The notes under the pieces are model-generated. The model saw only the letters and a program-made list of their open reading frames with translations, made no database searches and had not been told where the DNA came from. The translations under genes were made by a program, and so were the position numbers. From Planktomarina sp. (GTDB taxonomy: Bacteria > Pseudomonadota > Alphaproteobacteria > Rhodobacterales > Rhodobacteraceae), in NCBI GenBank assembly GCA_020629775.1, contig JAHDCP010000001.1, positions 1 through 64,000 on the forward strand: a DNA stretch of 64,000 nt. Reading direction: 5' to 3'. Of this stretch, positions 52,461-57,898 are shown piece by piece; the stretch's first letter is position 1; each line of letters starts with the position of its first letter.

Positions 52461-52501
52461 ATAAAAAAACCGCCGCACTTTGGGGATACCAAAGGCGGCG
52501 G
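52461..52501 (-). terminator. Intrinsic terminator of a minus-strand transcript downstream of recG
   Basis: Minus strand CCGCCGCCTTTGG-tatcc-CCAAAG(T)GCGGCGG, then GTTTTTTTAT; 13-bp stem with one bulge. Confidence 0.85.
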
Positions 52502-52635
52502 CAAGTCAGCACCTCGCAAGGGACCCGGAAAACTCTGTCCCAGAGGCAGTCTGGACAGAAAAGTGACGGCAGTCAGGCGTTTCAAATGTGGGATATGAAA
52601 CGCGTTCCGGTGCGGATGTGCAGGCAGAAATTTCG

Positions 52636-52749
52636 TTAGATGGCAGGAATGAACAGCGCGATGTAAAGCATTGACATCAAAGCAAAAACGCCAACGGCAT
52701 CTTTGATTGCGGCGATTGTCTCTGGGTGGCTTTTGATCCAAGTTTTCAT
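52636..52749 (-). CDS. Predicted 37-aa single-TM membrane peptide
   Basis: MKTWIKSHPETIAAIKDAVGVFALMSMLYIALFIPAI; preceded by a GTTC-N7-GTTC box, followed by a terminator. Confidence 0.55.
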   Translation of the reverse strand: MKTWIKSHPETIAAIKDAVGVFALMSMLYIALFIPAI

Positions 52750-52816
52750 CGGTCTGCTCTCAATGTGTTTTGTCGTTTGTTGCACCTTTGTTCTCATTTC
52801 AGAAACGATTTGTAAA

Positions 52817-52841
52817 GAACTTTTTAAGAACATTTGTGAAC
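52817..52841 (-). promoter_or_regulatory. Candidate LexA (alphaproteobacterial SOS) box
   Basis: Minus strand GTTC-ACAAAT-GTTC-TTAAAAA-GTTC; the second pair matches GTTCN7GTTC exactly. Confidence 0.6.
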
Positions 52842-52882
52842 AAAACGTGTTTTCAGCAGGCCCTATCGCCAACAGATTCCTG

Positions 52883-57102
<4,220 letters not shown>

Positions 57103-57184
57103 TCACCGTGAAGGTAGAAGCAAGGGGGGCCACCGTCCAGATTTGGACGTGCGAATAACGAAACTATTCGCAGGTATTTTCAGA

Positions 57185-57898
57185 TTAGGCCATTGCAGCT
57201 AGACGATGGTCAACGTCCACCGGTTGTGGATCGCGCAAAACATAGCCGCGACCCCAAACTGTTTCGATATAGCTTTGTCCATCTGTTGCGGACGCAAGTT
57301 TCTTACGCAGTTTGCATATGAAGACGTCGATGATTTTCAGTTCTGGCTCATCCATCCCGCCGTACAGATGGTTGAGGAACATTTCCTTGGTGAGCGTCGT
57401 TCCTTTACGCAGGCTCAGCAACTCTAGCATTTGGTATTCTTTGCCAGTTAGGTGGACTGGCTTGCCGCGCGCTTCCACAGTTTTTGTGTCCAAGTTGATG
57501 TGGACATCCCCAACTTCAATGATGGACTGCGAATGCCCTTTCGAACGACGGATAATCGCGTGGATCCGGGCCACCAATTCTTCTCGGTGAAATGGTTTGG
57601 TCAAATAGTCATCGGCACCAATTCCAAAACCCTTGATTTTGCTGTCAGTGTCGGAATCTCCAGAAAGGATCAAAATAGGCGTTTCAATTCTTGCCAAACG
57701 TAGATGCCTTAGAACTTCGTACCCATTCATGTCGGGCAGGCCAAGATCGAGCAAGATCAAGTCGTAGTCATAAAGTTTGGCCAGATCCAAACCTTCTTCA
57801 CCCATATTTGTGGCGTAAACATTCAGATTTGCATGCCCCAACATCATCTCGATGCTTTTGGACGTGGCCGGATCGTCTTCGATAAGTAAAATACGCAT
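57185..57898 (-). CDS. ctrA: Cell cycle response regulator CtrA
   Basis: [67 protein letters not shown]. Confidence 0.97.

Follow-up and report, generated by a model that had tools for sequence, protein, structure and literature searches.

We report that a 37-residue open reading frame (ORF) of Planktomarina sp., located downstream of recG in a stretch of 64,000 nucleotides (hereafter the window), belongs to a protein family that is new but of a known functional kind. An earlier note on this DNA had proposed that the frame encodes an SOS-regulated small membrane protein, and the comparison of genomes strongly supports that proposal, because the ORF is conserved, is under purifying selection and is preceded family-wide by LexA-type operators. 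Control of the gene by LexA is very likely, and the most likely action of its product, by analogy rather than homology, would be that of a division inhibitor resembling SidA.

Location and Architecture of the Peptide Gene

The locus and its surroundings in the window comprise the following features:

52462-52502, minus strand: intrinsic terminator, strong hairpin and U-run (-27.7 kcal/mol, z -5.0)
52636-52749, minus strand: 37-aa ORF, MKTWIKSHPETIAAIKDAVGVFALMSMLYIALFIPAI plus stop, with a basic N-terminus, one predicted transmembrane helix and a short C-terminal tail
52779-52793, minus strand: operator 2, GAACAAAGGTGCAAC, GAAC-N7-CAAC, operator-like and at a fixed spacing to operator 1
52811-52816, minus strand: TTTACA, a -35-like hexamer that abuts operator 1, nearly invariant family-wide
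52817-52831, minus strand: operator 1, GTTCTTAAAAAGTTC, an exact GTTCN7GTTC, LexA-type box
52838-52841, minus strand: third GTTC, N6 upstream of operator 1
52883-54973, minus strand: recG, on the same strand as the peptide gene and immediately upstream of it in nearly every orthologous locus
54970-57084, minus strand: NAD-dependent DNA ligase
57185-57898, minus strand: ctrA, a response regulator with a DNA-binding domain, named from a reading of its translation

The ORF starts at an ATG at 52749 and ends with a TAA at 52638-52636. Longer in-frame starts were rejected because they lie in or adjoin operator 2, have no convincing ribosome-binding site and are not conserved. Both this ORF (52749-52636) and the minus-strand array GTTC-N6-GTTC-N7-GTTC (52841-52817) were confirmed as the earlier note had given them. 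The downstream terminator to which it had appealed does exist, but at 52502-52462, outside the interval under consideration and ~134 nt past the stop codon of the peptide; a simple consensus scan did not list this hairpin. An Rfam match to the rdlD antitoxin at 52464-52518 (minus strand) overlaps the terminator, scored 18.8 bits against the 50 required and is most likely due to chance; the Rfam search gave no credible RNA at the peptide locus. Over 52636-57898 the order on the minus strand is ctrA, NAD-dependent DNA ligase, recG and the peptide gene, which puts the predicted SOS peptide in a row with repair genes and a cell-cycle regulator.

Conservation and Coding Capacity

Within the genus, the peptide is present in 18 of 20 genomes, the window's own included, and at all 17 of the same-genus loci that extend to recG it follows that gene. 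A profile built from the same-genus peptides found matches family-wide, and the best 28 outside the genus were all (28/28) located after recG. With a wider profile the gene was detected, nearly always as a single copy, in 258 of 298 genomes of the Rhodobacteraceae sensu GTDB, sampled at essentially one genome per genus. This count is a lower bound because divergent copies escape the profile: in seven genomes scored as gene-less, a short ORF containing D-x-x-G lies behind the same operators, and it was from the operator context that these very divergent copies, missed by the profile, were predicted. All 80 named orthologs that we retrieved follow recG, in Ruegeria, Leisingera, Phaeobacter, Sulfitobacter, Roseovarius, Rhodovulum, Tritonibacter and others. 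Conservation of ORF and box in related genomes had been named beforehand as a check on the proposal, and both proved to be conserved downstream of recG across the family. Elsewhere in the alphaproteobacteria, ~380 genomes yielded no credible match to the profile and five weak ones (E about 0.004), most of them lying within longer frames. A phage or plasmid origin was rejected, there being no phage record, no PHROG and a single plasmid match, the 1.58-Mb replicon of Pseudorhodobacter turbinis, on which recG and the peptide gene are both carried.

The pattern of substitution is that of a protein-coding gene under purifying selection. Over 38 disjoint ortholog pairs pN/pS was 0.17, with a median dN/dS of 0.09, which is the outcome of the dN/dS check that had been suggested for the peptide; the remaining two same-strand frames, taken as controls over a wider set of pairs than these 38, gave ratios of 1.35 and 5.05. 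Changes at codon positions 3, 1 and 2 numbered 2855, 1100 and 395, respectively, a Shine-Dalgarno sequence or ribosome-binding site precedes most starts, and ortholog length is uniform (39-43 aa in the 80 named genomes, with a family range of 37-47 residues). That the peptide gene is real is, in our judgment, virtually certain. Could genuine operators nonetheless drive a small RNA in which the ORF is incidental? The predicted transcript is short and has a strong terminator at its end, which would suit an RNA of this kind, but the excess of changes at position 3 over position 2, the low pN/pS beside its frame controls, the Shine-Dalgarno sequences, the uniform length and the lack of any Rfam match of note make this so improbable that we reject it.

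A Conserved Double Operator

On the minus strand the array reads GTTC(52841-52838)-ACAAAT-GTTC(52831-52828)-TTAAAAA-GTTC(52820-52817). Operator 2 is a second LexA-like half-site pair, overlooked in the earlier note, and its distance from operator 1 is identical in 107 of 113 loci. The consensus of the box-bearing upstream regions, tGTTCnCaaATGTTCt-n-aaAAAGTTCTTTACa-n11-aaaTGAGAACAAAg-n-ggCAACaaa, holds ~1.7 bits per column in each operator, against 0.46 in the intervening spacer and 0.17 past operator 2, where the leader is short and hardly conserved. In Pseudorhodobacter operator 2 is an exact GAACN7GAAC. We infer, rather than observe, a promoter at TTTACA, because a consensus promoter scan returned no sigma-70 promoter here and no matching -10.

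How much weight can the box bear by itself? The caveat that about two chance matches are to be expected in 64 kb was a fair one, as shuffling predicts 2.5 for the window and one was found. Across the genome GTTCN7GTTC occurs 83 times against 124 for a reversed control, and since it is not enriched the bare motif alone is no evidence. The window likewise gives no excess over chance, and the weight of the box must therefore come from comparison across genomes; the third repeat, on which the earlier note had partly relied, holds up well in that comparison (exact in 100 of 113 loci). In 78 of the 80 named orthologs an exact GTTCN7GTTC precedes the ORF by 68-165 nt, and the two without it are Zongyanglinia, which have GTTC-N6-GTTC-N6-GTTC in place of the N7 spacing. 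The flanking DNA of the same loci contains three matches in 460 kb, counted on both strands, and shuffled versions of the same upstream regions contain the motif in 25 of 4000 cases. The null raised by the caveat, a chance box next to a spurious ORF, would accommodate the single match in the window where 2.5 are expected, but box and ORF are both conserved across no fewer than 23 named genera and the ORF itself recurs in 258 of the genomes sampled, so that the probability of this null is negligible and we reject it.

Relationship to the SOS Response

The genome encodes LexA, and GTTCN7GTTC stands just upstream of its lexA, recA, uvrA, uvrD and PA0069-like radical-SAM genes and directly before imuB, where imuA ends (apart from LexA and RecA, the SOS genes were named from readings of their translations). 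The SOS interpretation put forward earlier is thus backed by the fact that known SOS genes of this genome are preceded by the box as well. The recA operator is TAAGAACAAGAGGCGAACA, the lexA operator is TAAGAACAAGCGTAGAACA and the second element of the peptide gene is TGAGAACAAAGGTGCAACA, which matches those two in layout and differs by a single half-site base. It is because of this shared layout, of the box that the peptide gene has in common with known SOS genes and of the conservation of both operators across the family that we rate control by LexA as very likely.

Does the distribution of LexA itself bear on its control of the gene? A LexA DNA-binding profile matched 288 of the 298 family genomes, and the peptide gene is absent from five of the ten LexA-negative genomes, a small set of which some are incomplete, versus 35 of the 288 LexA-positive ones (Fisher p 0.005, kinship ignored; p 0.007 within near-complete genomes, kinship again ignored). 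This co-occurrence runs in the direction expected but is weak evidence because LexA presence barely varies. One near-complete genome without a match to the LexA profile (G193) retains the peptide together with an intact box, and has either a diverged LexA or another regulator that reads the site.

Two other probable SOS loci of the Planktomarina genome deserve mention in their own right. At its 3′ end the imuA-like frame contains two overlapping GTTCN7GTTC boxes in an 11-bp register, with three GTTC (L037:1486-1511), which suggests that imuB may have a separate SOS promoter. For the PA0069-like radical-SAM gene the box is ~20 nt or less from the start (L031:3036-3050), and this is a probable SOS gene.

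The Predicted Protein

AlphaFold modeled the peptide as one helix (residues 9-33) and a short helix (2-7), with a mean pLDDT of 84. Since basic residues occur solely before the core Asp (2.2 K/R before it, none after), the positive-inside rule would place the N-terminus in the cytoplasm. The D-x-x-G core keeps both its Asp and its Gly in every one of 28 dissimilar representatives; small residues are conserved too, as is a Pro close to the end, and conservation is concentrated on one face of the helix (permutation p 0.016), which would suit a specific helix-helix contact. We found no match of note among Pfam, NCBIfam and PHROG profiles or PDB chains, and no earlier description in the open literature that we searched. 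Its absence from the family databases is probably due to its small size.

Proposed Function and Alternatives

We propose that LexA would repress the peptide gene by way of two operator-like elements, one on each side of the promoter, and that DNA damage would turn the gene on. The product would be an inner-membrane protein of ~40 residues with a single helix and its basic N-terminus in the cytoplasm, and this helix may dock, via its conserved face, onto a membrane protein and so arrest division, with the septal FtsW/FtsI/FtsN machinery as the likeliest point of action, until LexA returns. Of these steps, LexA binding, damage induction and topology are inferred from sequence features, and the divisome as target is speculative. 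A role in division inhibition is the best fit because this would be an alphaproteobacterial, SOS-controlled, single-helix protein like the known damage-induced inhibitors; by that analogy we regard damage-induced inhibition of division as having an even chance of being correct, and the entire chain, from LexA repression through damage induction and the membrane protein to a division checkpoint, as falling just short of that.

What else might a LexA-controlled membrane peptide do? Larger membrane proteins are often modulated by small ones, and the peptide could tune a target other than the divisome during damage, such as a transporter, a respiratory complex, a protease, or the machinery of DNA uptake or gene transfer agent release. 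Its presence in most family genomes would fit a housekeeping damage response, and the production of gene transfer agents in Rhodobacteraceae has been linked to LexA (PMC9638019), but no neighbor or fusion indicates such a target, the gene being solitary between recG and a convergent gene, and we consider this explanation unlikely, if still a serious one. A poorer prospect is that the peptide is an SOS-induced membrane toxin of the TisB/DinQ type, which would insert into the membrane, lower membrane potential and ATP, and slow growth or favor persistence. DinQ and TisB are LexA-controlled single-helix peptides, and overproduced DinQ depolarizes the membrane (PMC3567139). The size and single helix of our peptide would agree with such a toxin, as would the tight-looking double operator, which would keep a harmful product firmly off. 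DinQ and TisB are, however, held by antisense RNAs, whereas here the leader is short and hardly conserved and there is no credible Rfam RNA; the lack of a visible antisense partner or conserved leader makes a toxin less likely, and the invariant Asp and Gly, the conserved Pro and the single conserved face would fit a specific partner over a general disturbance of the membrane. We therefore judge a toxin improbable.

A division inhibitor would have several counterparts. SidA and DidA of Caulobacter crescentus are small damage-induced membrane proteins that act on late steps of division (PMC4211646). SidA, a LexA-controlled, FtsW-directed inhibitor of 29 aa, shares with the peptide an alphaproteobacterial host, very small size and, as predicted for the peptide, one membrane helix and LexA control of the GTTCN7GTTC type, but the Rhodobacteraceae peptide has 37-47 aa, a fixed linkage to recG and a double operator; SidA was compared by description, and the Rhodobacteraceae profile found no credible relative in other alphaproteobacterial families. 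DidA likewise is a small membrane protein of an alphaproteobacterium induced by damage, as is predicted here, but it is SOS-independent, being induced by DriD, and acts via FtsN (PMC4211646). YneA, SosA and ChiZ are also small membrane proteins that damage induces and that inhibit late division steps, and in models their transmembrane helix contacts FtsW (PMC13396833). The peptide would resemble them as a predicted small membrane protein of the damage response, but they belong to other phyla and are larger, with extracellular parts (including a LysM domain in YneA and ChiZ), and no profile or PDB match connects them with the peptide family. With TisB and DinQ of Escherichia coli the peptide would share LexA-type control and a single helix, although no antisense partner of the kind with which they are paired is evident for it.

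Significance

Although the Rhodobacteraceae, among them the marine roseobacters, are both abundant and well studied, our search of the open literature turned up no account of an SOS division inhibitor in this family. What is striking about the peptide gene is its near-universality in the family, its tie to recG, its rigid double operator and the apparent absence of any description. As a single-copy gene of most family genera with strongly conserved operators, it is a candidate core SOS gene. We suggest, tentatively and by analogy, that it may specify a family-wide damage checkpoint of the Rhodobacteraceae, in which an undescribed family unrelated to SidA, encoded beside recG under an unusually rigid double LexA operator, would stop septation by way of helix-helix contact within the membrane; this fuller picture we hold to be somewhat less than an even proposition. 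Such a checkpoint would be a further, independent example of regulation by small membrane proteins that damage induces.
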